Source: a virus. Taken from it: DNA of 48,375 nt. This document shows, piece by piece, positions 5,586 through 47,813 of the stretch (positions are counted from its first letter, which is position 1; each line of letters opens with the position of its first letter). The stretch covers positions 1 through 48,375 of IMG/VR virus record IMGVR_UViG_3300020731_000027; one strand, written 5' to 3'. The notes below the pieces were generated by a model. The model made no database searches and was not told the origin of the DNA. It saw only the letters and a program-made list of their open reading frames with translations. The position numbers were made by a program, and so were the translations under genes.

Positions 5586-6014
5586 ATGAATAAAAATGAT
5601 GTAAAATGGACAACAGATTGGAATTATAAAGTTGTTGAATCGTATCTTAATGAACAAAATGATTGGAATCAAACGTTAATTACTAAAATTAATCAAATTT
5701 CAGCTCAAATTTTTAAAACCACTTTAAGTGGTAGTGCTAATTGTATTGCGTTATGCAGTAAATTAAAACCACTAATAGAAACTCTTTTATTCTATAAAGA
5801 TGGTTATCTTGCAGAAAAATATAAAGTTATTATTGATGATAGTTTGGATTCGGATACGATATTAGTGTATAAAGATAACCCAAAAAATGATAAATATTTT
5901 AAAATTATTGATGGTAACATACATGAATTACCCAGAAGTAATGATGAAGAAGAATATCAAGAATATCTTAAAAAACATTATGGTCGTGTAATAATTCAAA
6001 ATTATGGAGAATAA
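5586..6014 (+). CDS. Unknown protein with a capsid-domain-like pattern
   Basis: 142 residues. The central part (INQISAQIFKTTLSGSANCI, then KLKPLIETLLFY, then AEKYKVIIDDSLDSDTILVY) resembles the peripheral-domain pattern of phage major capsid proteins: I-S-x-x-T-..-G-x-A-N-x-I, a helix, and then YKV-IDP. The protein is far too short to be a capsid protein and lies outside any head operon. It could be a capsid-derived accessory protein, or the likeness could be chance. Confidence 0.45.
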   Translation: MNKNDVKWTTDWNYKVVESYLNEQNDWNQTLITKINQISAQIFKTTLSGSANCIALCSKLKPLIETLLFYKDGYLAEKYKVIIDDSLDSDTILVYKDNPKNDKYFKIIDGNIHELPRSNDEEEYQEYLKKHYGRVIIQNYGE

Positions 6015-6038
6015 AACAAATAATAAATTTGCAAAGTT

Positions 6039-6239
6039 ATGGGGAATAATTTAGATAAACAACATATAGAATTATTAGAGGATATATTAAAAAATAATGT
6101 TGAAAGTAAAGAAGAAAAACAGAAAAAGTTAAAAAAATTAATCCCAATGAAAACAGAATCTTTTCATAAATCATTATTAGAAGATAATTCATTAATTACA
6201 CATTTAGACCCAATTGATTTTTTTCATGAACAAAGCTGA
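6039..6239 (+). CDS. Unknown small charged helical protein
   Basis: 66 residues, mostly Lys/Glu helix (EDILKNNVESKEEKQKKLKK). Its last 14 bases overlap the thymidylate synthase start, so it may serve as a coupled upstream cistron. No family is recognised. Confidence 0.5.
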   Translation: MGNNLDKQHIELLEDILKNNVESKEEKQKKLKKLIPMKTESFHKSLLEDNSLITHLDPIDFFHEQS

Positions 6240-7056
6240 TTTTAATTATAAAACTAATTTAAAAAAAATATTAGATAATGGTTGTTGGGATATTGACCCA
6301 AGACCTAAATATAATGATGGTACGCCAGCTCATTCCAAATTTATAACAGGTGTATTTGAAGAATATGATATATCAAATGAAGAGTTTCCAATACCTACTT
6401 TAAGAAATACCGCAATTAAAACAGGAATAAAAGAAGTTCTTTGGATTTATCAAAAACAATCATCTTCATTAGATGACGCTCATGGTATGGGTATAAAATG
6501 GTGGGATGAATGGGATATTGGTAATAATACAATCGGTCAAAGATATGGATCTACAATAAAAAAATGGAATTTAATTGATAATATTTTAAAAACATTAATT
6601 GAAGAACCATTTTCAAGACGACACATCATGAATATGTATCAATATTCTGATTTAAAGGAAACTAAAGGACTTTATCCATGTGCATATGAAACAATATTTT
6701 CAGTAAGAAAAGAAAATAATAATTTAATGTTGGATATGACACTAATTCAAAGGTCAAATGATTATATTGTCGCAGGTTATATTAATAAAATACAATACGT
6801 GGCATTACAAATGATGATTGCTGGACATTGTAATTACAAAGTTGGTAAATTTTGTCATTTAGTTCAAAATCTACACATTTATGATAGACATTTCAATGCA
6901 GTTTCTGAATTATTAGAAAAAAAACCATTAGACATTTATCCTAAATTATTATTAAAAGAAAATAAGAATTTTTATGATTATACAATAAATGATTTTGAAA
7001 TTTTTAATATAGAAAACATAACTAAAATTAATTCAGAATTGGAATTGGCTATTTAA
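6226..7056 (+). CDS. thyA: Thymidylate synthase
   Basis: A 276-residue ThyA that converts dUMP to dTMP with methylene-tetrahydrofolate. The catalytic Cys lies in LYPCAYET (residue 152). QRSNDYIVAGYINKIQYVAL holds the phosphate-binding Arg-Ser and the dUMP-binding Asp/Asn. HLVQNLHIYDRH supplies the His-Tyr pair, and GQRYGSTIKKW fits the N-terminal loop. The usual LPPC is LYPC. The start at 6226 (MNKADFNYKTN) is preferred to 6214. It works with DHFR at 2784. A GIY-YIG endonuclease follows 60 bases downstream, a position that recalls T4 td and its I-TevI intron, but no intron splits this gene. Confidence 0.9.
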   Translation: MNKADFNYKTNLKKILDNGCWDIDPRPKYNDGTPAHSKFITGVFEEYDISNEEFPIPTLRNTAIKTGIKEVLWIYQKQSSSLDDAHGMGIKWWDEWDIGNNTIGQRYGSTIKKWNLIDNILKTLIEEPFSRRHIMNMYQYSDLKETKGLYPCAYETIFSVRKENNNLMLDMTLIQRSNDYIVAGYINKIQYVALQMMIAGHCNYKVGKFCHLVQNLHIYDRHFNAVSELLEKKPLDIYPKLLLKENKNFYDYTINDFEIFNIENITKINSELELAI

Positions 7057-7093
7057 TTTTTTGGGATTACCATTCAACTTTTTTTATTATGAT

Positions 7094-7105
7094 GATATTT
7101 ATAAT
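7094..7105 (+). promoter_or_regulatory. Late-type GATATTTATAAT element
   Basis: GATATTTATAAT ends 11 bases before the GIY-YIG endonuclease start. It matches the ATATTTAT core seen before the other intact endonuclease and the virion-like genes. Confidence 0.45.
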
Positions 7106-7116
7106 AAAGAAAAGTT

Positions 7117-7848
7117 ATGATTGGAGTTTATAGAATAAAAAATAAAATTAATGAAAAATGTTATTATGGTTCATCAAAAGAAATTAAAAGGAGATGGTTA
7201 CGACATAAAAATGAATTAAGAAAAAATAAACATATAAATGATTTATTACAAAGAGCGTGGAACAAATATGGTGAGGATAATTTTATCTTTGAAATGGTTG
7301 AAGAATGTGATATAAATGACTTACTTGAAATAGAACAAAAATATTTGGATTTAAATCCTGAATATAATATTGGTTTAAATGCATGCGGTGGTGATAATAT
7401 TACTAAAAATCCAAATAAAGATTTAATTATTGAAAATATAAAAAGGGGTACTAAATTATGGAGAGATGGTTTATCAGATGAAGAAAGAAAAGAAAAATTA
7501 TCTAAACCTTTAGATAAAAATCCAAATTGGAAAGGTGGTAGTTCTTTTATTTATTGTAAATGTGGTAAAAGAATTGGTTATGGTCGTCAACATTGTCAAA
7601 AATGTAGACCAAGAAGTGAAAAAGATAATCCATTTTTCGGTAAAAAACACACAGAGGAATATAAAAAAAATGCATCAAAAAGACAAACTGGTGTATATAA
7701 TGGTGATCAAAATATTCCTATTATCATTGATAATATTGAATATAAATCTTTGGGTGACGCATCTAAAATATTAGAAATACCTATAACAACAATTAGATGG
7801 AGAGTTAAAAGTAAAAATAAAAAATTTCAAAATTACACATATAAATAA
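7117..7848 (+). CDS. GIY-YIG homing endonuclease with NUMOD3 motifs
   Basis: 243 residues. The N-terminal GIY-YIG nuclease has IGVYRIKNKINEKCYYGSS, an RWLRHKNELRKNKH helix with the Arg, and LLEIEQKYLD with the catalytic Glu. Around residues 140-150 lies a NUMOD3-type NPNWKGG. Then come CKCGKRIGYGRQHCQKC, a four-Cys zinc finger like that of I-TevI, a second NUMOD3 (NPFFGKKHTEE), and a C-terminal NUMOD1/HTH (LGDASKILEIPITTIRWRV). It cuts a long recognition site and spreads itself. It is free-standing and complete. Confidence 0.88.
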   Translation: MIGVYRIKNKINEKCYYGSSKEIKRRWLRHKNELRKNKHINDLLQRAWNKYGEDNFIFEMVEECDINDLLEIEQKYLDLNPEYNIGLNACGGDNITKNPNKDLIIENIKRGTKLWRDGLSDEERKEKLSKPLDKNPNWKGGSSFIYCKCGKRIGYGRQHCQKCRPRSEKDNPFFGKKHTEEYKKNASKRQTGVYNGDQNIPIIIDNIEYKSLGDASKILEIPITTIRWRVKSKNKKFQNYTYK

Positions 7849-7855
7849 TTAAATT

Positions 7856-8050
7856 ATGGATTTTCATATCGGACAAATAGTTTATCATAGAGATGTCTAT
7901 GAACATAGAGAACCACTAGAAATAGTTGGTATTCGTAAAGATCAATTAGAACTCGAAGGTGATTATAGTGGAATGTATAATATAAAACAACGATCATGGT
8001 TACCAATAAAAGGTGTTTCAGTTGTGTATAATTATGCATATAAAAAGTAA
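7856..8050 (+). CDS. Conserved small phage protein, SH3-like
   Basis: 64 residues: FHIGQIVYHRDVYEHREPL, EIVGIRKDQLELEGDYSG, NIKQRSWLPIKGVSVVYNY. The string of short strands with G-Q-x-V-Y and L-E-G-D-Y-S-G signatures recalls small SH3-like barrels shared by many phages. The function is unknown. The start follows the endonuclease by 7 bases. Confidence 0.6.
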   Translation: MDFHIGQIVYHRDVYEHREPLEIVGIRKDQLELEGDYSGMYNIKQRSWLPIKGVSVVYNYAYKK

Positions 8051-8166
8051 TGTAAGGTTGAAACAAGAAAACGATAACTTGTGTAATTTTGTGCAAGTTT
8101 AGTTGAACGGTATTACATCCAGTAAATGTACCATGTCCAAAGTGTTTAGAGGAAAAAAATAACTAG
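8034..8166 (+). pseudogene. Broken small zinc-ribbon-like gene
   Basis: A frame starting at 8034 encodes a 22-residue strand-rich piece (MHIKSNVRLKQENDNLCNFV) and hits TAG at 8100. In another frame, 8107-8166 encodes TVLHPVNVPCPKCLEEKNN, with a CPKC zinc-ribbon knuckle. Together they look like one small protein broken by a stop and a frame change. A Val codon (GTT) sits right before the stop and another (GTA at 8110) right before the resumed frame, so a ribosomal hop is conceivable. Decay is simpler. Confidence 0.35.
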
Positions 8167-17825: not shown

Positions 17826-18497
17826 ATGGCACGTATTGATGAACTTCGTAAACAACATCCAGATTTAAATGTCTCTTTTTTAGACATCATTGTCAGTTTA
17901 GACCCAACAAGTACTTACAAGTACACCGACTTCATTATTAAGTCAATTAAAAAAGAAGTCAATATTGATGAAGTTAAAAGAGAGTTAGCTTCTCACTTCT
18001 TAACAAAAAAAGAATCCGAATGTCTTAGTTTGTTTGAAGAACATTCCAAAGCAAAACGTTTGGAAAAACTTGATATCACTCAATACAAGTCTTTTGAGGA
18101 TTTGGATATCGCAGTTAAGAAAGCTGACGAAGCAGTTAAATTGAAGCGTCTTGAGAAAGAAGTTGCAAAACTTTATGAAACTGAGGATTGGTTAGTTTTA
18201 ACACCATTGAGTTATGAAGCATCTAAATCATATGGTGCAAATACCAAATGGTGTGTAACACAAGAATCACATTACAAACGTTATCAAGATAGTCATAGAA
18301 TTTTCTTCATTTTAAGTAAGAAAACAAATGATAAATTCGCTGTGTCTAGAGAATTTAATGATCCAAAAAATATCCAAGCTTGGTTGGCTGATGATGAGGA
18401 AACTTCACCAATGTTGTTACCAATACCTTTCGATGTAATGGGTAAAATCATTGAGGAAGTGAAGAAACCAAAAGAACAATTATATAACACAAAATAG
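17826..18497 (+). CDS. TKWC-motif phage protein, short paralogue
   Basis: 223 residues. The N-terminal helical half (SFLDIIVSLDPTSTYKYTDF) and a coiled segment lead to EDWLVLTPLSYEASKSYG, ANTKWCVTQ, HRIFFILSKKTNDKFAVS and AWLADDEETSP. The same order occurs in the 495-residue protein at 36561, so the two are paralogues. The Cys in TKWC, the Tyr 9-12 residues later and the I-F-F-I strand with a following Lys recall the PcfJ C-terminal layout. The function is unknown. Confidence 0.65.
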   Translation: MARIDELRKQHPDLNVSFLDIIVSLDPTSTYKYTDFIIKSIKKEVNIDEVKRELASHFLTKKESECLSLFEEHSKAKRLEKLDITQYKSFEDLDIAVKKADEAVKLKRLEKEVAKLYETEDWLVLTPLSYEASKSYGANTKWCVTQESHYKRYQDSHRIFFILSKKTNDKFAVSREFNDPKNIQAWLADDEETSPMLLPIPFDVMGKIIEEVKKPKEQLYNTK

Positions 18498-22567: not shown

Positions 22568-23017
22568 ATGGAATTTTTATCTATTTTTTCAGCAGTCTTT
22601 TTTTTATGTTTTTTTTCCATTATATTGGCAACAATATTAACCAATTATGGTGGTTATAAATACTATAAATCAACTTATGAAAAGTTGGTTAACAAAGATT
22701 TTATCTTTGAATATAGAACCAATCTTGAGGGTTTAAATGATATTTATACCTTTACTCATAAAGAGAAAAATACTTCATTATTATCTAATGATGATGATAG
22801 TAATATTTTAATTTTTATTAAAGAGAATGATAGTATATCAATTAAATTAAGTGGTGGTGATTTGGAGTACATTCATAATGGATCATTAACTTATTTTGAC
22901 CCATATACCTTATATTGGTATCTTAAATTTAAGATATGGTTTAATAATAATAAAAAAGATTTCACTAAAACTTTTAATGAAAGATTTGATGAAGTTTTTC
23001 CTAAAAAAGTTGGTTGA
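22568..23017 (+). CDS. Membrane-anchored unknown protein
   Basis: 149 residues with one N-terminal span (IFSAVFFLCFFSIILATIL) and a soluble, strand-rich remainder (FIFEYRTNLEGLNDIYTFTH). A second hydrophobic YTLYWYLKFKIWF may lie on the membrane. It begins 10 bases after the AAA+ gene and could be its membrane partner. No family is recognised. Confidence 0.5.
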   Translation: MEFLSIFSAVFFLCFFSIILATILTNYGGYKYYKSTYEKLVNKDFIFEYRTNLEGLNDIYTFTHKEKNTSLLSNDDDSNILIFIKENDSISIKLSGGDLEYIHNGSLTYFDPYTLYWYLKFKIWFNNNKKDFTKTFNERFDEVFPKKVG

Positions 23018-23040
23018 TAAAAAATTATCCCTTATATTTG
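23010..23040 (+). promoter_or_regulatory. Bacteroidota-type promoter
   Basis: TTG 23010-23012, 20 bases, TATATTTG 23033-23040. It starts inside the end of the upstream gene and drives NAMPT. Confidence 0.65.
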
Positions 23041-23067
23041 CATAACAATAAAAATAAAAGTAAAAAA

Positions 23068-23898
23068 ATGGAAAAGAATCCCTTGTTATTAACAGATGGT
23101 TATAAAACCTCTCATCACAAAATGTATCCAGAGAATACAACTTGTGTTTATTCAAATTTCACATTAAGAAATGTGAAATACATGCCAGAAAATGCAAAAC
23201 AAATCGTTGTGTTTGGTGCTCAGTATACAATGAAGTATATTGACGAAATCTATAAAAAGAATTTCTTCGATAAACCAAAAGAACAAGTTATCGGTGAAGC
23301 TAAGAAATACCTTTCAAGTTATTTGGGTTGTGACTATGATGTTACACACTTTGAAAAACTTCATGATTTGGGTTATTTACCTATTCGTGTTAAGACTTTG
23401 AAAGAAGGTACTATTGTTGGTGAAAAAATACCAGTATTGACAATATATAACACTCACCCTGAGTTCTTCTGGTTACCAAACTTCCTTGAAACATTGATTT
23501 CAAGTTTGATATGGAAACCAGTACATTCCGCATCATTGGCATTTGGTTATAAAAAAATATTAACCGATTGGGCAAAGAAAACCGATAAAAATAATCTTGG
23601 TTTTGTTAATTTCCAAGGTCATGATTTTAGTTTCAGAGGGATGCAACATCCTGAAAGTGCAATATCTTCAGGTTTAGGTTTCTTGACCAGTTTCTATGGT
23701 ACAGATACAATCCCTGCATTACAAGCATCGCAATATTATTACAATTCTGAAAACGTTGGGTTTAGTGTTCCGGCGACAGAACATTCTATTTCATGTTCAC
23801 ATTTAGACTATAATGAAGTGGAAATAGAAGAAGAATATCTAGTTACATATGACGACAACAATAATAAAATCTCAGAAATTTTAATAAAGATGGTGTAA
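23068..23898 (+). CDS. nadV: Nicotinamide phosphoribosyltransferase (NAMPT / Namat-like), N-terminal part
   Basis: 276 residues from MEKNPLLLTDGYKTSHHKMY, the family's opening. Further family blocks follow: VYSNFTLRN, EGTIVGEKIPVLTI, ETLISSLIWKPVHSASLAFG, NFQGHDFSFRGMQHPESAIS, and SVPATEHSISCSH with the active-site His. The frame then leaves the family (LVTYDDNNNKISEILIKMV) and stops. The enzyme joins nicotinamide to PRPP to give NMN; in phage NARP1 the related Namat joins nicotinamide to ADP-ribose pyrophosphate to give NAD+. The second part starts 84 bases on. The start at 23014 is rejected because it precedes the -7 box. Confidence 0.88.
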   Translation: MEKNPLLLTDGYKTSHHKMYPENTTCVYSNFTLRNVKYMPENAKQIVVFGAQYTMKYIDEIYKKNFFDKPKEQVIGEAKKYLSSYLGCDYDVTHFEKLHDLGYLPIRVKTLKEGTIVGEKIPVLTIYNTHPEFFWLPNFLETLISSLIWKPVHSASLAFGYKKILTDWAKKTDKNNLGFVNFQGHDFSFRGMQHPESAISSGLGFLTSFYGTDTIPALQASQYYYNSENVGFSVPATEHSISCSHLDYNEVEIEEEYLVTYDDNNNKISEILIKMV

Positions 23899-23981: not shown

Positions 23982-24860
23982 ATGAAAAAAGTAATTGAAA
24001 AAAGAAAAGTAGTTAAAAAAGTTATTAATGAGAGACCATATATAAGTCATATTCTCAAAACTTACCCAACTGGTATTGTTAGTTTAGTGTCAGATCAATT
24101 TGATTTATGGAAAATGATAACAGTATTTCTTCCGGAATTTAAAGACTTAATTCTTTCAAGAGATGGTAAATTGGTAATCAGACCTGATAGTGGTAATCCG
24201 GTGGATATTATTTGTGGAACTTACAATAAGGAAAAAGATGGTATTTTAATTCCTTGTGATGGGGGTTTTAATTCAAATAGTGGATTTAAAACCTCTGATT
24301 ATCCGAATAAACCTGATACTAAAGGGGTAATCGAATTACTTTGGGATGTATTTGGTGGTACTGTAAATGAACAAGGCTACAAGGTATTAGATCCACATAT
24401 TGGAGCAATCTATGGAGATTCAATAACATTGGAACGTGCAGATGAAATCTGTAGAAGATTGGAAGCAAAAGGGTTTGCATCAACAAACATTGTATTGGGT
24501 GTTGGTTCATATTCAATGGGTTACGCAACCAGAGATAACCAAGGTGGAGCAGTTAAGGCAACTTATGTTGAATTAACAAGTAACATTGGTAAATCAATTG
24601 GTGAAGTTGGAACAATGGATACTCCACAAGTAATCGGAAGGGTAATATTCAAAGACCCAATTACTGATGATGGTACAAAGAAATCTGCAAAGGGTCTTTT
24701 GTATGTCGGTAAAAATGAAAATGGTGAATATTACCTTGAAGATAATGTTTCTTGGGAGAAAGAACGTACTGGTGAATTAGAGACAATTTTTGATGATGGT
24801 GTTTTGGTTAAAGAAACTTCATTATCTGAGATAAGAGAAAGATTATCTCAATATCTTTAA
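23982..24860 (+). CDS. nadV: Nicotinamide phosphoribosyltransferase, C-terminal part
   Basis: 292 residues. After a lysine-rich start (MKKVIEKRKVVKKVINER) the NAMPT family resumes at ISHILKTYPTGIVSLVSDQF, with the D-x-W segment, KLVIRPDSGNP (phosphoribosyl site), IGAIYGDSITLERADEIC, and VLGVGSYSMGYATRDNQGGA. All core motifs of this half are present, so with the upstream part it could form a two-chain enzyme. The first residues and the 84-base gap are not part of the family. Confidence 0.85.
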   Translation: MKKVIEKRKVVKKVINERPYISHILKTYPTGIVSLVSDQFDLWKMITVFLPEFKDLILSRDGKLVIRPDSGNPVDIICGTYNKEKDGILIPCDGGFNSNSGFKTSDYPNKPDTKGVIELLWDVFGGTVNEQGYKVLDPHIGAIYGDSITLERADEICRRLEAKGFASTNIVLGVGSYSMGYATRDNQGGAVKATYVELTSNIGKSIGEVGTMDTPQVIGRVIFKDPITDDGTKKSAKGLLYVGKNENGEYYLEDNVSWEKERTGELETIFDDGVLVKETSLSEIRERLSQYL

Positions 24861-24871
24861 TTAAAAATAAA

Positions 24872-24903
24872 TTTGGGGAATTGAAAAATTCCCCTTATTT
24901 TTG
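24872..24903 (+). promoter_or_regulatory. Promoter with a perfect hairpin in the spacer (copy 1)
   Basis: TTTG 24872-24875, 20 bases, TATTTTTG 24896-24903. GGGGAATT, GAAA loop, AATTCCCC (24875-24894) fills the spacer. It may act as an operator, or as an RNA hairpin that ends upstream transcripts. It drives the gene at 24921. Confidence 0.65.
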
Positions 24904-26492: not shown

Positions 26493-26524
26493 TTTGGTGG
26501 ATTGAGAAATCCATTTTATTTTTG
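26493..26524 (+). promoter_or_regulatory. Promoter with a hairpin in the spacer (copy 2)
   Basis: TTTG 26493-26496, 20 bases, TATTTTTG 26517-26524. The stem is GGTGGATT / AATCCATT around GAGA, with two G-U pairs at the base. Confidence 0.65.
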
Positions 26525-30520: not shown

Positions 30521-31420
30521 ATGAAAGTTTTAAACTTAACAAATTATGGAGAATCTGACATTAAATTCAGAATATCTACATTTCCTGATGGTCAACAAGA
30601 CATCACATTAATTAGTTGGAAATTCACTTCAAATATAACCGATATTGGTTCTAATGAAGTGATACAGATTAAATCACGTTTCAACTCATTTAAGGACTTG
30701 GAATTAATTATATGTGCAACTAAAGCACTTCGTAGATTGAAAGTAAAAGAAATACATCTTTACATTCCTTATTTACTTGGGGCACGTTCAGATCGTCAAT
30801 TTTTATCTGGTGGTAACTCTTATCTTGTTGATGTGATTGCACCAATATTAAATGCACAAGATTATGAAAGTGTAACAGTAATGGATGCACATAGTGATGT
30901 TGCAGCTGCTTGTATTAAGAACCTTAATATTATTGATAACGTAAACCTTGTTAAGTTTGCAATAACCAATATTGTACCACCAGCAATTGGATTAACTCAA
31001 TCTGTTATTGTTTCACCTGATGCTGGTGCAATGAAGAAGATTTATCATGTTGCAGAAGGTATTGGTTATAAAAATAATATATTAATTGCATCAAAACATC
31101 GTGATGTTGAAACTGGTAGGATTTTGAGAACTGATGTTCCTCTTACTCCTGAACATAGTAACAAATCATTTGTTATTATTGATGACATTTGTGATGGTGG
31201 TAGAACATTTATTGAGATTGCAAAAGTTATCATTGAAACTTATCCTGATGCTAGAATTTACTTAGTTGTAACACATGGTATATTCAGTGCAAGTTTTGAA
31301 ACATTAAGTGAATACTTTGATGGTATCTATTGTACAAATTCAGTTAAGGATATTCCTAAATTAGTGTTAAATGAAAATGAATTTGTAAAAACAAAGGTTA
31401 CACAATATAACGTATTTTAA
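30521..31420 (+). CDS. prs: Ribose-phosphate pyrophosphokinase-like enzyme (PRPP synthetase / Adps)
   Basis: 299 residues. Family blocks: STFPDGQQDITL, LYIPYLLGARSDRQFLSGG (the P-Y-x-x-x-x-R-Q-D-R-x region, here R-S-D-R-Q), VTVMDAHSDVAAACI, VIVSPDAGAMKKI and the PRPP loop VIIDDICDGGRTF. It transfers pyrophosphate from ATP to ribose 5-phosphate. In NARP1 the relative Adps instead acts on ADP-ribose. The missing N-terminal nucleotide-binding SGN/NG segment seen in housekeeping Prs makes the alternative plausible. It partners with NAMPT at 23068. Confidence 0.87.
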   Translation: MKVLNLTNYGESDIKFRISTFPDGQQDITLISWKFTSNITDIGSNEVIQIKSRFNSFKDLELIICATKALRRLKVKEIHLYIPYLLGARSDRQFLSGGNSYLVDVIAPILNAQDYESVTVMDAHSDVAAACIKNLNIIDNVNLVKFAITNIVPPAIGLTQSVIVSPDAGAMKKIYHVAEGIGYKNNILIASKHRDVETGRILRTDVPLTPEHSNKSFVIIDDICDGGRTFIEIAKVIIETYPDARIYLVVTHGIFSASFETLSEYFDGIYCTNSVKDIPKLVLNENEFVKTKVTQYNVF

Positions 31421-32699: not shown

Positions 32700-32731
32700 T
32701 TTGGTGGAATGAAAGTTCCACCTTATTTTTG
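32700..32731 (+). promoter_or_regulatory. Promoter with a hairpin in the spacer (copy 3)
   Basis: TTTG 32700-32703, 20 bases, TATTTTTG 32724-32731. The stem GGTGGAAT / GTTCCACC around GAAA differs in sequence from copy 1 yet still pairs. Confidence 0.65.
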
Positions 32732-36560: not shown

Positions 36561-38048
36561 ATGTCAAATTACAAACAACTAAAGTCTAATCCGGAGTACA
36601 ACATCAGTTTGGTTGATGTTATGAGTTTTGTTACAAAAACAAATAAAGCAAAGTACCTTGAATTATTTTGTAAACTTTACAAGAATAAAAAAATAGGTGG
36701 TAAAAAAAATAATGTTTATGGTACATTGATTTCAAAAATTTTTGATATACCACAATCAGAGGTTGATATGTTAACATCGTTTTCAACATATATTCATTAT
36801 TTGATTACTGAAAATATGTCTGAAGATATAAAATTATTCCAAAAGTTTGTTAATTTAAATGAACGTGGTTTAATTGAAAAAAATGATGTATTAACATACA
36901 CATCAATTGATGAATTAAAGAACGAGGTTTCCAAATCTGAATCTAGACATATTGAGAAAGAAATGGAGAAACAAGTACAGAAAATTTCTGACGATGAAGA
37001 ATGGTTAGTATTAAGACCATTAACATATGAATCATCAAGAAAGTATGGTTCTAATACCAAATGGTGTACAACACATAATGAAAGAACATACTTTGATAAG
37101 TACACTAAGAATGGTATTTTAATTTATTTTATTAATAAAAAAACCGGTGTTAAAGTTGCTGTATTTAGGTCATTAAAACATAGTGATAGTAATAGTCTTG
37201 GTGGTGTTGCAAGAGAATTTTCATTTTGGGATCAGAAAGATGTTAGAATTGATTCAATGGAATCGGGATTACCTGATTATATTAAATCAATATTAATGGA
37301 GGAAATTAATAACAATCCTTATACTAACTTGGAAGTTTATGCAAAAAGAAATAAAGTTCAAGTACCAAAAGAAGAGGAATTTTTTAAGAAAAGAAGAACA
37401 ATTGGTGTAACTGAAATGGTAGTTAATGAAGAAGAACAAGAACCTGGTGGAGACGTACTTCCTGGTATGTTACCTGATATAAATTATGGTGAACTTGCTC
37501 ATGGAGTAGAAAATGATAGATTTGGTAGATTAGCACAACGTATTAATGATTTAACTAACAATGATAGAGTAAGACGTGTTAGGGAGTTAATGACTGATGA
37601 TGTTGAAGATAGACCTGTAGATCAACCACAACCGACTAGATTAAGAGTTGCCGATCTTGTTGATGCAATTGCTAGACGACAAGAATATATTCATAATCTT
37701 GAAGTGGATCGAATTCAAGAAGCAAATGAAGATGTTGAGAGTGAATTTATTTCTCAAATGAGACAATTGGAAGAACAACATCAACAAGAAGAATATGTTG
37801 ACCGAGATTTTATTTCTGAAATGGAATCAAGAGAAGATGAAGAAGAAGACTATGGTGTTGAAGCTGAACCAATGCCAGAAGATGGTGAAGATATGGTGGG
37901 AGAAATTGATGGTGATGTTGAGGAATCAGTTAATAATTTTCTAACAGAAATGAGTGACAGACTTGGAAGATCAGGTTGGATTACAACAAATATTACCATA
38001 GAACGTCCACAATTGAGAGATGAATCACAAGATGAACAAGCAGGATAA
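36561..38048 (+). CDS. TKWC-motif phage protein, long paralogue with acidic tail
   Basis: 495 residues. Residues 1-250 parallel the 223-residue protein at 17826: NISLVDVMSFVTKTNKAKYL, then DDEEWLVLRPLTYESSRKYG, SNTKWCTTHN, ILIYFINKKTGVKVAVFRSL and SFWDQKDVRIDS. Residues 275-495 are a long, repetitive, acidic and Gln-rich tail (EEYVDRDFISEMESREDEEE), likely coiled or disordered. The tail might bind a partner or DNA-binding protein. The function of the core domain is unknown. Confidence 0.65.
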   Translation: MSNYKQLKSNPEYNISLVDVMSFVTKTNKAKYLELFCKLYKNKKIGGKKNNVYGTLISKIFDIPQSEVDMLTSFSTYIHYLITENMSEDIKLFQKFVNLNERGLIEKNDVLTYTSIDELKNEVSKSESRHIEKEMEKQVQKISDDEEWLVLRPLTYESSRKYGSNTKWCTTHNERTYFDKYTKNGILIYFINKKTGVKVAVFRSLKHSDSNSLGGVAREFSFWDQKDVRIDSMESGLPDYIKSILMEEINNNPYTNLEVYAKRNKVQVPKEEEFFKKRRTIGVTEMVVNEEEQEPGGDVLPGMLPDINYGELAHGVENDRFGRLAQRINDLTNNDRVRRVRELMTDDVEDRPVDQPQPTRLRVADLVDAIARRQEYIHNLEVDRIQEANEDVESEFISQMRQLEEQHQQEEYVDRDFISEMESREDEEEDYGVEAEPMPEDGEDMVGEIDGDVEESVNNFLTEMSDRLGRSGWITTNITIERPQLRDESQDEQAG

Positions 38049-41344: not shown

Positions 41345-41728
41345 ATGTTTTTAATTTATTTTCTTGGAGGATTATTTCTCCTATACATTTTTATGTATTT
41401 AATCGGTAATGATAGTTTAGAATATCAAACGAATGGAAGTACATATATTTTCAAATCGTCTTCAAGATCTAGTGGTTCATTGGTATTTCCTGCAACAATA
41501 ACAATAACACCAAAGAATGTAACTTATTCAAAGAAATTGGGTTATTTTGATAAAACAAATGTTGTAACCATTCAAAGAAGAACAATTAATAGTGTTCAGG
41601 TTGTAGAAAACTTTTGGAGTGCTGATGGTTGTCAAATCATTATTGGTACAAATGGTAATTCATCAATATACGCTCAGGGTTTTACTAAAGGAAATTCAAG
41701 AAAAATAAAAGAAATTTTGGTGGGTTAA
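41345..41728 (+). CDS. Membrane-anchored PH-like domain protein
   Basis: 127 residues. One N-terminal span (LIYFLGGLFLLYIFMYLI), then a strand-rich domain with YIFKSSSRSSGSLVFPATIT, VVTIQRRTINSVQVVENFWS and QIIIGTNGNSSIYAQGF, ending SRKIKEILVG. This strand-helix order resembles bacterial PH domains (bPH/YdbS). The role is unknown. Confidence 0.5.
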   Translation: MFLIYFLGGLFLLYIFMYLIGNDSLEYQTNGSTYIFKSSSRSSGSLVFPATITITPKNVTYSKKLGYFDKTNVVTIQRRTINSVQVVENFWSADGCQIIIGTNGNSSIYAQGFTKGNSRKIKEILVG

Positions 41729-41738
41729 TTATTTTACC

Positions 41739-41746
41739 TATATTTG
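41739..41746 (+). promoter_or_regulatory. -7 box TATATTTG
   Basis: TATATTTG four bases before the smpB start, giving a leaderless message. Confidence 0.6.
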
Positions 41747-42834: not shown

Positions 42835-44136
42835 ATGAACTTAATTAGATTACAAAGAGATTTTGTTGTTGGATTTGAAAGTGCTGGAGGTACAGATGTT
42901 GAGGAAGTAAAAATCAACCCAGTTCAAATCGTCACAATTAAAAATAAAATACCCCTATTCAAGGGTGATGAACAAGCAAATGCAATTGAAAAAATTGAAA
43001 TTGAAGAAAATGGTTTCAGTTTGGTTGCACAGAAAGACCTATATGAAATAGGTGATAAGGCGGTGTATATTCAACCTGATTATTCATTGAGTGATATTCC
43101 ATTGTTTGAATCATTTATCAGACCATTTGGTGATTCAAAGAAATCAAAACTTGGTTCAAACTATCGTATTAGAGCGGTGAAATTCAATCTTCATACTGGT
43201 GATTTGGAACCAACATATTCTGTTGGTATTTTATTACCAATTGAAGAAGTTGTTAAGTACTTGCAGAAGGATGATTATACGGACGATGATCTACTACATT
43301 TTTACCACTACTACGGACCTGGTGAGGGTAGAGATCTAGCAAAAGAATTAGGTATTACCAAATGGGAAGAACCTGATAATACTGATAATCATGGAATGAA
43401 AGTTAGAAGTGGTAAACCATTACCATCTGGTGTTTATAAGACAGATGAAATGAATTGTAAAAATCTTTGGGGACATATTGAAAATAAAATTGGTTATCCT
43501 GTAACATTAATTGGTTCTATAAAATGTGATGGTTCTAGTATTTCATTGATTGTTGATAATGGTAAAATAAGTGTTGCTTCTAGAACATATCTTAAAGAAG
43601 TAATGATTTCCAAAGTCATTGGAAATAGAGAACCAACATTATGGGAAAAAATTAAAAAATTCTTTGGTTATAAACCTGATTTGTTAATTAGAGAAATGGT
43701 GGAAAGTGATGATCAATTCATTGTATTGGCAAAACCATACATTGAAAAAATCAAAGAAAAACTTAATAATGAGGACTTTCCAAAAAAATTCATTTTAAGA
43801 GGTGAAGCAAACGGTCAATCTTGGAAAGGTTCTGGTAATAAGAATAATCCTGATTCAAAAAATCAACCAAACATTAAGTTTTATGGTATGGATGATTATT
43901 CAAGTGGTGTTGCTCTTAAACTAGATAATAATACTTTCAAAATTTACATGGATATTTTTGGTTTTGAAAGATGTAAAGAAATCTTCAAAAAAGAATTCAA
44001 TTCAAGAGAAGAAATTGAAAAGGAATGTAAAGAATACTTTAAGAATAACATGGTCGAAGGTATCGTTTTAAGAACATTGGATAGTAAATTCAGTGCTAAA
44101 CTGATGAACGATGAATATGATAGTTTAAAAAAGTAA
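42835..44136 (+). CDS. RNA ligase of the Rnl5 (DraRnl-like) type
   Basis: 433 residues. Residues 1-150 form an OB-like N-terminal domain (NAIEKIEIEENGFSLVAQKD, GDKAVYIQPDYSLSD, SNYRIRAVKFNLHTGDLEPT). The ligase domain has motif I GSIKCDGSSISL with Lys 230, Ia/III KISVASRTYL and FILRGEANGQ, IV MVEGIVLRT and V FSAKLMND. The N-terminal OB plus a C-terminal ligase is the Deinococcus Rnl5 order. It seals 3'-OH/5'-PO4 RNA ends in duplexes. It would repair host or phage RNA cut by defence nucleases. Confidence 0.83.
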   Translation: MNLIRLQRDFVVGFESAGGTDVEEVKINPVQIVTIKNKIPLFKGDEQANAIEKIEIEENGFSLVAQKDLYEIGDKAVYIQPDYSLSDIPLFESFIRPFGDSKKSKLGSNYRIRAVKFNLHTGDLEPTYSVGILLPIEEVVKYLQKDDYTDDDLLHFYHYYGPGEGRDLAKELGITKWEEPDNTDNHGMKVRSGKPLPSGVYKTDEMNCKNLWGHIENKIGYPVTLIGSIKCDGSSISLIVDNGKISVASRTYLKEVMISKVIGNREPTLWEKIKKFFGYKPDLLIREMVESDDQFIVLAKPYIEKIKEKLNNEDFPKKFILRGEANGQSWKGSGNKNNPDSKNQPNIKFYGMDDYSSGVALKLDNNTFKIYMDIFGFERCKEIFKKEFNSREEIEKECKEYFKNNMVEGIVLRTLDSKFSAKLMNDEYDSLKK

Positions 44137-44192
44137 ATTTGTTCAGTAAAATATAATACCATATATTTGCATCATTAAAATAAAAAATTATG
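44130..44192. repeat. 63-bp direct repeat, copy 1 (promoter)
   Basis: It differs at 3 of 63 positions from 46342-46404 and holds TTTG 44138-44141, 20 bases, TATATTTG 44162-44169, and the ATG at 44190. The two copies enclose the AAA+/M41 gene. Confidence 0.85.
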
Positions 44193-46361
44193 AAAATAAC
44201 ATTAAAAGAAAGAAAAAATATTGTTAAGAAAAACGCTAATTTGGAAATTGTTAAAGAACAATTAAAAAGTGAGTATATAGGTTTAGATTCGGTTATTGAT
44301 AATATTATAGATAATATTAGATCTTATTATGTTTTTCCAAAGTCATTAAAGAGACCATTAATTATTAATTTATTTGGTATGACTGCAACTGGTAAAACAG
44401 ACTTAGTTGAACGTTTAGTTAAATTACTTGATTTAGAAAATAAGTATGTAAGGTTTGATATTGGTGAATATGCTAATGATAGTGAATGGAAATTAAAAAA
44501 TGATTTAACCGATAAAGTTTGTCAAAAAAATGATAACAATATGGTTATTGTTTTTGATGAAATACAATTTGGTAGAACAATTGATGAAAAGGGTGCTGAA
44601 ATCGCTAGACAATCTTTACGTTCTATGTGGGAAGTTATTGATTCAGGTATTTTAACTGCACCAAAGCGTCTTGAGTCTAATTTTTTTAGATATTTCAAAC
44701 AATTAGAAGAAATGGATTTAAAAATGTTTTTTGATAAAAATTTAAGAACTAAATCTCTTGAAACAACTAGGATTATTTCTGATTTACAAAGCAACGCTAA
44801 CATTTCACAATACTATAAAACATCCGATATTAATACTATTCATGTAAATTGTCTTTTTCAATCATCAATTGACATTATAAAACGTGAATATCCAGATTGT
44901 ATTAGTATTGACAATTTTATTGATACTAAAAAATTACTAGCATATAATGTTAAAGATTTAGGCATTACTAATGTTGATAAGATTACAGGGTTAACTATTG
45001 TCCCTGAAAGTTTATTTAAGAAAATGGCAATTAATAATCCAAATTTCTTTTCAACACATACTCACTCAAGTTATTTGGAGTTTTTAACTAAGTTTGAAAC
45101 TAAAGATGATTTAATAAAACATTTTTATAGTGTTTTAATTGATGGTAAGTCTTTATTAAAATTTGATTTATCTAAATCACTTATTTTTATTATTGGTAAT
45201 ATTGATGAGGCATATAACATGACTCATTCATCAAATCCCGACGCTGATGCTGATATTTTTCATGAACATTCTTTAAAAATAACACCATCAAAAATTAAAC
45301 ATGCTTTATCCACTAGATTTAGAATGGAGCAGATAGGTAGGTTGGGTAATAATATCATTATTTATCCGTCATTTTCTTGTGAATCTTATAGAAAAATAAT
45401 TAAAAAGTTACTAAAACAAAGAATTGATTATTTCAAATCTGAATTTGATATAAACTTATTTTTTACTGAAAGTCTTGAAGACATTGTTTATAAAGAATCT
45501 GTATTTCCCAGTCAAGGTGTTAGACCAGTTTTATCAACAATAAGTACTTTTATAGATTCTTTTATCACTAAGATTATTAGTGATGTAATTTTAAAGGGTA
45601 TTGATACGGATAATATTATATGGTCATTTAATTATATTGATAGTTCACATGAAATTATTATTAAGACAAAAACTGATGATGTGAAATTTGAATATCCAGT
45701 AACATTAAAAATTGAAAATTTAAGAAAATCAGATTCATCTGAAAATCAATCATATACTGCAATTCATGAATCTGGACATGCACTTGTTTCAATTATTAAG
45801 GCTAAGTTAATACCTAAGTTAGTAGTATCTAAAACTGCATCAAATGCGGAAGGATTTTGTCGAATTGAATTACCTGATATTAAAACTAAAGAGATACAAT
45901 ATTTAAACATCTTAATTGCTTTAGGTGGTAGGGCAGCGGAAAAATACGTACTAAAAAGTGAAGAAATGTTATCGTCTGGTTCTTATTCTGATTTATCTTC
46001 AGTAACTGAAACCTCTAATATGATGATTAAAGCTTATGGTCATGGTAATTCTCCATTTGTTATAAGACATACGGATTCTGAAATTGTTTCATTTAGGAGT
46101 GAAAATTTATTGTTAGATGCTGAAAAAATATCAAAAAAATTAATTGAAACAGCAGAAAAAGAAGTTGATGAAGTCATGGATAAATATAAGGATCTTTTAA
46201 TGGAGATGATTGACTATTTATCTGTTAATTCACAACTTACTGAAAATCAAATCAGGAATATGGTTAAAAAGTACGATATTGATATAAAAAATAAAGATAA
46301 CTATTACAACATTAAAGAAAAAATTGTTGAATTTAAAAAAGAAAGTAAATTTGTTCAGTAA
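44190..46361 (+). CDS. AAA+ (HSP100-type) ATPase fused to an M41 (FtsH-like) metalloprotease
   Basis: 723 residues. Walker A FGMTATGKTD at 62-71; Walker B MVIVFDEIQ at 118-126; a second core segment LIFIIGNIDEAYN; and STRFRMEQIGRLGNN leading to YRKIIKKLLKQRI, the box VII and small-domain order of Clp/HSP100, not FtsH. From about 515 an M41 domain begins: AIHESGHALVSI (zinc H526, H530; catalytic E527), LNILIALGGRAAEKYVL, SSGSYSDLSSVTETSNMMIK with the third ligand D601. No membrane spans. It would unfold and degrade proteins in the cytoplasm. The last codons lie in the repeat shared with the flank. Confidence 0.82.
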   Translation: MKITLKERKNIVKKNANLEIVKEQLKSEYIGLDSVIDNIIDNIRSYYVFPKSLKRPLIINLFGMTATGKTDLVERLVKLLDLENKYVRFDIGEYANDSEWKLKNDLTDKVCQKNDNNMVIVFDEIQFGRTIDEKGAEIARQSLRSMWEVIDSGILTAPKRLESNFFRYFKQLEEMDLKMFFDKNLRTKSLETTRIISDLQSNANISQYYKTSDINTIHVNCLFQSSIDIIKREYPDCISIDNFIDTKKLLAYNVKDLGITNVDKITGLTIVPESLFKKMAINNPNFFSTHTHSSYLEFLTKFETKDDLIKHFYSVLIDGKSLLKFDLSKSLIFIIGNIDEAYNMTHSSNPDADADIFHEHSLKITPSKIKHALSTRFRMEQIGRLGNNIIIYPSFSCESYRKIIKKLLKQRIDYFKSEFDINLFFTESLEDIVYKESVFPSQGVRPVLSTISTFIDSFITKIISDVILKGIDTDNIIWSFNYIDSSHEIIIKTKTDDVKFEYPVTLKIENLRKSDSSENQSYTAIHESGHALVSIIKAKLIPKLVVSKTASNAEGFCRIELPDIKTKEIQYLNILIALGGRAAEKYVLKSEEMLSSGSYSDLSSVTETSNMMIKAYGHGNSPFVIRHTDSEIVSFRSENLLLDAEKISKKLIETAEKEVDEVMDKYKDLLMEMIDYLSVNSQLTENQIRNMVKKYDIDIKNKDNYYNIKEKIVEFKKESKFVQ

Positions 46362-46404
46362 AAAATAATACCATATATTTGCATCATTAAAATAAATAGT
46401 TATG
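46342..46404. repeat. 63-bp direct repeat, copy 2 (promoter)
   Basis: Same as 44130-44192 but for 3 bases. It encodes the end of the protease and carries the promoter TATATTTG 46374-46381 and start codon of the next gene. Confidence 0.85.
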
Positions 46405-47781: not shown

Positions 47782-47813
47782 TTTGGGGAATTGAAAAATT
47801 CCCCTTATTTTTG
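47782..47813 (+). promoter_or_regulatory. Promoter with a perfect hairpin in the spacer (copy 4)
   Basis: TTTG 47782-47785, GGGGAATT-GAAA-AATTCCCC, TATTTTTG 47806-47813. Identical to copy 1 over the whole 32 bases. Confidence 0.65.

Follow-up and report, generated by a model that had tools for sequence, protein, structure and literature searches.

The window analysed here is the whole of a 48,375-base virus record, and one ORF on its plus strand encodes a protein of 723 aa in which an AAA+ module (residues 1-503) is followed by an M41 zinc peptidase (residues 516-700). The ORF was found where an earlier note on this DNA had placed it, and the motifs quoted there (Walker A, FDEIQ, GNIDEAYN, STRFRMEQIGRLG and HESGH) were all recovered, invariant or nearly so among the 14 homologues described below. 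The gene lies between an upstream neighbour encoding an RNA ligase (phrog_968) and a downstream neighbour encoding a DUF7275 protein that is present in hundreds of phage records. These neighbours identify the ORF as a phage gene. The positions of all features are given in Table 1.

Table 1. Features of the fusion gene and its flanks, in window positions
Feature	Residues	Position	Strand	Basis
66-bp direct repeat, left copy, ending at the ATG of the ORF		44127..44192	+	62/66 identical to right copy
Bacteroidota-type promoter TTTG-N20-TATATTTG, directly preceding the ORF		44138..44169	+	sequence match; expression inferred
Whole ORF: HSP100-D2-type AAA+ module and M41 zinc peptidase	1-723	44190..46361	+	
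AAA+ large subdomain, first part	1-160	44190..44669	+	HMM and structure match to the second ring of ClpB/ClpC/Skd3
Walker A, GMTATGKT	63-70	44376..44399	+	G63, G68, K69, T70 invariant in 14/14
Expected pore loop 1 (GYVG) site, shortened	about 94-110	44469..44519	+	GKT-to-DE spacing
Walker B, VIVFDE	119-124	44544..44561	+	D123, E124 invariant in 14/14
Variable insert, pore-loop-2/pre-sensor-1 hairpin	about 161-320	44670..45149	+	spacing, pLDDT, poor conservation
Sensor 1 strand ending at N337		45180..45200	+	N337, D339-E340-A341-Y342 invariant
Predicted arginine finger	R384	45339..45341	+	invariant in 14/14; aligns with the Arg of ClpB/ClpC EFLNR, EFLGR
ClpB D2-small-like subdomain	398-503	45381..45698	+	Pfam in 13/14, phrog_4871 in 14/14
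Sensor 2	R445	45522-45524	+	invariant in 14/14
M41 peptidase domain	about 516-700	45735..46289	+	Pfam, PDB profile, structure
HESGH zinc-binding and catalytic motif	526-530	45765..45779	+	H526, E527, H530 invariant in 14/14
Third zinc ligand	D601	45990..45992	+	invariant in 14/14; aligned with the FtsH GASxD Asp
66-bp direct repeat, right copy, overlapping the 3' end of the ORF and ending at the ATG of the next gene		46339..46404	+	

The sequence TTTG-N20-TATATTTG upstream of the ORF fits the Bacteroidota promoter consensus. Sites of this type occur 18 times in the window compared to 4.6 expected, all on the coding strand. This excess suggests that the host is probably a member of the Bacteroidota and that the gene has its own promoter. 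Several of the matches (24872-24903, 26493-26524, 32700-32731, 41716-41746 and 47782-47813) have an inverted repeat (e.g. GGGGAATTGAAAAATTCCCC) filling the TTTG-TAnnTTTG spacer. These would also read as a hairpin followed by T-rich DNA, and so may be a terminator/promoter hybrid or an operator. The direct repeat that flanks the gene scored 56 compared to 16.5 for the best shuffle. Each copy contains the promoter, and the right copy supplies the final codons of the fusion gene. From this we infer that the gene may have entered by insertion or duplication via the promoter repeat; none of the other 13 family loci has a flanking repeat. The fusion gene was absent from 25 viral records that share the RNA ligase adjacent to it here (45 RNA ligase loci were found), and an empty insertion site could not be read because the neighbourhoods differ among the phages that share this ligase.

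To the N-terminal half, the earlier note had assigned a Clp/HSP100-like motor. Pfam searches with the window protein alone gave only weak AAA-type and ClpB_D2-small matches, N-terminal to M41; across the family, ClpB_D2-small (PF10431) was matched in 13 of 14 members, at best with 5.9e-7, the window protein by itself remaining below threshold. An HMM of the AAA half was built from the family with the insert removed. It matched five HSP100 proteins at 67.0, 57.9, 48.5, 33.2 and 29.4 bits, each on the second ring, and the second ring of Atu_ph07 gp492 at 43.5 bits, compared to a maximum of 6.1 bits against 33 FtsHs. The best matches of the whole-family profile to the motor part in the PDB were ClpE (2.1e-15), Hsp104 (3.0e-12) and ClpC (7.7e-12), with ClpB also matched, and not FtsH, and phmmer with the window protein retrieved ClpB/ClpC for the N-terminal half and FtsH for the C-terminal half. 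AlphaFold2 was run on the alignment of all 14 sequences (A7) and returned a full-length model with a mean pLDDT of 72.8 and a pTM of only 0.62. The predicted N-terminal half superposed on mitochondrial CLPB/Skd3 (Z 24.2, 302 residues, rmsd 2.8) and also fitted the ClpC second ring at a Z of about 24 over some 300 residues. By HMM and by predicted structure the AAA half is thus an HSP100 D2 module, in line with the HSP100-type motor that had been claimed. Within it, R376 and R384 both lie in STRFRMEQIGRLG, and the sensor 2 residue R445 lies in QGVRP. Since the published classification places FtsH in the classic AAA clade and the D2 rings of ClpA/B/C in the HCLR clade (PMC7226402), the protein is a fusion across clades.

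The C-terminal half was matched by Pfam Peptidase_M41 (E = 1.4e-16, residues 516-675). The NCBIfam FtsH model covered residues 516-674 only and, at 51 bits, stayed below its cut-off of 600. The HMM built from the M41 half scored 68.6-109 bits against 33 FtsHs, and the family profile matched FtsH in the PDB at 6.2e-29 over this half. When the peptidase was predicted alone (pLDDT 80.8), it superposed on FtsH (Z 20.4, 186 residues, rmsd 3.2), and the first chain that was not of FtsH type appeared in the structure search at Z 11. Failure of the HESGH domain to superpose on M41, which would have refuted the original proposal, was therefore not observed. The proposed active site also held, with HESGH and a distal Asp (D601) in place, and E527 had been named correctly as the catalytic Glu. 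The protein has no membrane span, again as proposed. Its 19-residue hydropathy maximum was 1.33 (0.93-1.69 in the family) compared to 2.89 in a control FtsH, in a simple scan without a dedicated predictor. Between sensor 1 and the arginine finger, a ClpP-docking tripeptide of the [LIV]GF type was absent from 13 of 14 members, the window protein included, as would be expected if the peptidase is built in; the L255 member has IGL in this interval.

FtsH genes carried by phages turn up often in viral contigs, and their M41 domains are homologous to the one found here, so we considered whether the protein is merely a diverged phage FtsH without its membrane anchor. This is very improbable. The AAA-half HMM scores reject it (29-67 bits across the six HSP100 second rings, no more than about 6 for FtsH), a D2-small subdomain stands where FtsH has its own lid, and the M41 halves form a separate clade. 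An AAA half scoring best against FtsH itself had been named beforehand as a result that would overturn the HSP100 assignment, and this was not the outcome.

Single-sequence scans with the window protein found no homologues, and the first M41 alignments used as queries returned ordinary FtsHs only. The true family came from an alignment broadened around HExGH, which was scanned against IMG/VR; a second scan with the resulting alignment added more members. In total, 13 further distinct full-length homologues were recovered on viral contigs of 64-413 kb (IMG/VR; 18 contigs), with 27-36% identity to the window protein in A7. Five distinct members (L255, L258, L261, L262 and L263) are on contigs of >320 kb. 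The residues G63, G68, K69, T70, D123, E124, N337, R376, R384, R445, H526, E527, H530 and D601 are invariant in all 14 sequences. As these comprise both ATPase and zinc residues, both engines appear to be under selection. In the L261 member (5908-8130), HESMH replaces HExGH and the HExxH zinc motif is kept. Against 32 FtsHs, the M41 halves of the 14 members fell on one side of a single branch with a support of 99/100. This single clade is consistent with the fusion having arisen once and then spread among large phages, with the root untested.

In all 14 distinct sequences, which come from separate metagenomes and were in several cases recovered repeatedly, the fusion is encoded by a single unbroken frame. 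These independent homologues lead us to reject an assembly artefact or a gene-calling fusion of two adjacent genes, an explanation that has nothing beyond rarity to recommend it and to which we give almost no credence. Conservation of the whole architecture across independent contigs likewise excludes chance. No neighbouring gene is common to all 14 loci and none recurs in more than a few, which fits a self-contained enzyme.

We found no family with the HSP100-M41 combination in Pfam, PHROGs, NCBIfam or PADLOC, where the PADLOC defence families gave nothing beyond a weak P-loop match. Foldseek against BFVD returned proteins resembling FtsH and, as separate hits, proteins resembling Clp, and no entry named as the combination. 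With four members as queries, the family was not found in INPHARED; the sole match, MT835498 (L002), is an FtsH gene in bacterial-looking surroundings and is probably host DNA, as is the FtsH gene of Acinetobacter 'phage' MD-2021a (L005), which has similar surroundings. The fusion was also not found in 149 Bacillota genomes, an empty result that is weak by itself; the Bacteroidota, the likely hosts, were outside this search. A search of the open-access literature gave no paper on an HSP100-M41 fusion.

The earlier interpretation, supported as far as it went, was silent on phage-family membership and on two departures from the HSP100 plan, the missing pore loop 1 and a large insert. An aromatic pore loop 1 is otherwise near-universal. 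In the fusion family the canonical loop (GYVG) is absent from all 14 members. The spacing from GKT to the DE of Walker B is 52 aa in the window protein and 48-52 in 12 of the 14 members, compared to 64 aa in ClpC and Atu_ph07 gp492, in which the aromatic loop lies within that stretch; GYVG is likewise absent from the two longer members, with spacings of 61-63 residues. Four of the fusion-bearing phages (L277, L278, L279 and L280) also encode a separate two-ring Clp-type ATPase. These retain an aromatic second-ring loop (GYVG, GYVG, GYIG and SYVG), so only the fusion protein has lost pore loop 1. The second departure lies between the Walker B helix and sensor 1, where G153 and N337 are 183 aa apart in the window protein and 118-193 across the family. 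The insertion falls at the position of the pre-sensor-1 beta-hairpin, varies in length and sequence, is poorly conserved in the alignment and is modelled mostly at pLDDT <50. Because of this low confidence, any role for the insert is a guess from its position and variability.

The absence of pore loop 1 weighs seriously against ordinary threading and is our main doubt. In a torsin-like, non-threading enzyme, ATP turnover would only open, close or assemble the M41 ring, and unfolded or small proteins would be cut. Torsins belong to the same clade, are without pore loops and have been argued not to thread (PMC4999309), and a weak Torsin Pfam match is present in 5 of the 14 members (4.9e-4 in the window protein, below the cut-off). 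On the other hand, sensor 1, the arginine finger, sensor 2 and D2-small are all retained, as in processive motors, and the large insert at a pore-facing loop could substitute for pore loop 1. We consider the non-threading explanation unlikely, though it remains a serious possibility.

The protein shares with FtsH, m-AAA and i-AAA (M41, TIGR01241, PF01434) the M41 fold, HExxH with a distal Asp, and a peptidase C-terminal to AAA+ in one chain. In contrast, it has neither the classic-clade AAA domain of FtsH nor its aromatic FVG pore loop and N-terminal membrane helices. The HSP100/Clp second ring (D2 of ClpA/B/C/E, Skd3; also ClpX) is the best structural match and has the same AAA+ core, arginine finger, sensor 2 and D2-small. 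Unlike HSP100/Clp proteins, the phage fusion has no GYVG loop, ClpP-docking tripeptide or first ring, and it carries a 118-193-residue stretch before sensor 1 and a covalent metallopeptidase. Lon is likewise soluble with an HCLR-clade motor and a peptidase in one chain, but this peptidase is a Ser-Lys protease, unlike M41. In the accepted arrangement, FtsH has a classic-clade AAA domain, and HCLR motors work with ClpP, with HslV or, in Lon, with the peptidase of the same chain.

Two phage families resemble the fusion in part. The 'ATP-dependent protease' phrog_4871 (phage ClpA/B-like, e.g. Atu_ph07 gp492) matches the sensor-2/D2-small part in 14/14 members, but gp492 differs in its full-length pore-loop-1 stretch and has no M41 match. 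The C-terminal part of phrog_30773 (phage FtsH-like) matches the M41 half in 13/14; the likeness is limited to this part, and its N-terminal part matches other AAA proteins. Torsins are HCLR-clade AAA+ proteins without pore loop 1, as is the fusion, but they are eukaryotic proteins of the secretory pathway, have no peptidase domain and need an activator, LAP1/LULL1 (PMC4999309), a partner not to be expected for a phage protein. A survey of 224 jumbo phages lists ClpP, ClpS, ClpA, ClpX and others as proteolysis tools (PMC7824862), and the HSP100-M41 fusion is absent from those listed.

The window protein and its relatives are best read as a new family of phage proteins, each a soluble AAA+ metalloprotease complete in itself. 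The fusion protein is still an AAA+ protease in kind. We think it likely that it is a single-chain zinc protease in which an HCLR-clade motor stands in place of the classic-clade motor of FtsH, and that it works along the following lines, for which there is no biochemistry. Six subunits would assemble into two stacked rings, one of ATPase and one of M41 domains; both the hexamer and the docking of the rings are proposed by analogy with FtsH. ATP hydrolysis, if coupled as we infer, would feed substrates to the inner zinc sites or gate their access, and proteins would be cut there without ClpP or another partner. Choosing and gripping substrates would most likely fall to the variable insert that lies at the pore-loop-2/pre-sensor-1 hairpin, an assignment inferred from the loss of the canonical pore loop 1. 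The phage would express the protease from a host-type (Bacteroidota) promoter, and selected soluble proteins may be removed during infection; both the targets and the role in infection are inferred.

The protease might instead act on phage proteins, in maturation, scaffold removal or quality control of virion parts. In jumbo phages, well-conserved peptidases are for the most part distributed by virion type and probably take part in maturation, while patchy ones have been argued to be host-directed (PMC7824862). The fusion gene is patchy, being absent from the 25 records that share its RNA ligase and lacking common neighbours, and we regard a phage-protein target as rather improbable. Since the peptidase is both patchy and partner-free, the same argument makes a host target more likely than virion parts, by analogy with that survey; nothing here shows it, and the earlier note's candidate targets, host or defence proteins, stay conjectural. 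More tentatively, and with less than even confidence, the family of soluble metalloproteases may be seen as a further design of single-chain AAA+ protease beside FtsH and Lon, with a soluble HCLR HSP100 motor on M41 and a fast-varying pore insert that grips substrates in the absence of pore loop 1, by which huge phages remove chosen host proteins.

As a natural cross-clade fusion, the protein shows that M41 domains can be coupled to a different kind of motor, and it offers a natural test of the motor parts that are indispensable to a metalloprotease. With pore loop 1 lost and the other catalytic residues kept, the need for loop-driven threading in AAA+ proteolysis becomes testable. Huge phages also gain a candidate host-takeover enzyme, a candidate only while its targets are untested.

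Elsewhere in the window, ORFs 23014-23898 and 23982-24860 resemble, by eye and without profiles, the N- and C-terminal halves of nicotinamide phosphoribosyltransferase. They are followed by a PRPP-synthetase-like ORF (30521-31420), recognised in the same way, which suggests a set of NAD salvage genes. ORFs 17826-18497 and 36561-38048 both carry WLVLxPLxYExSxxYGxNTKWC and are apparent paralogues with no assigned function.
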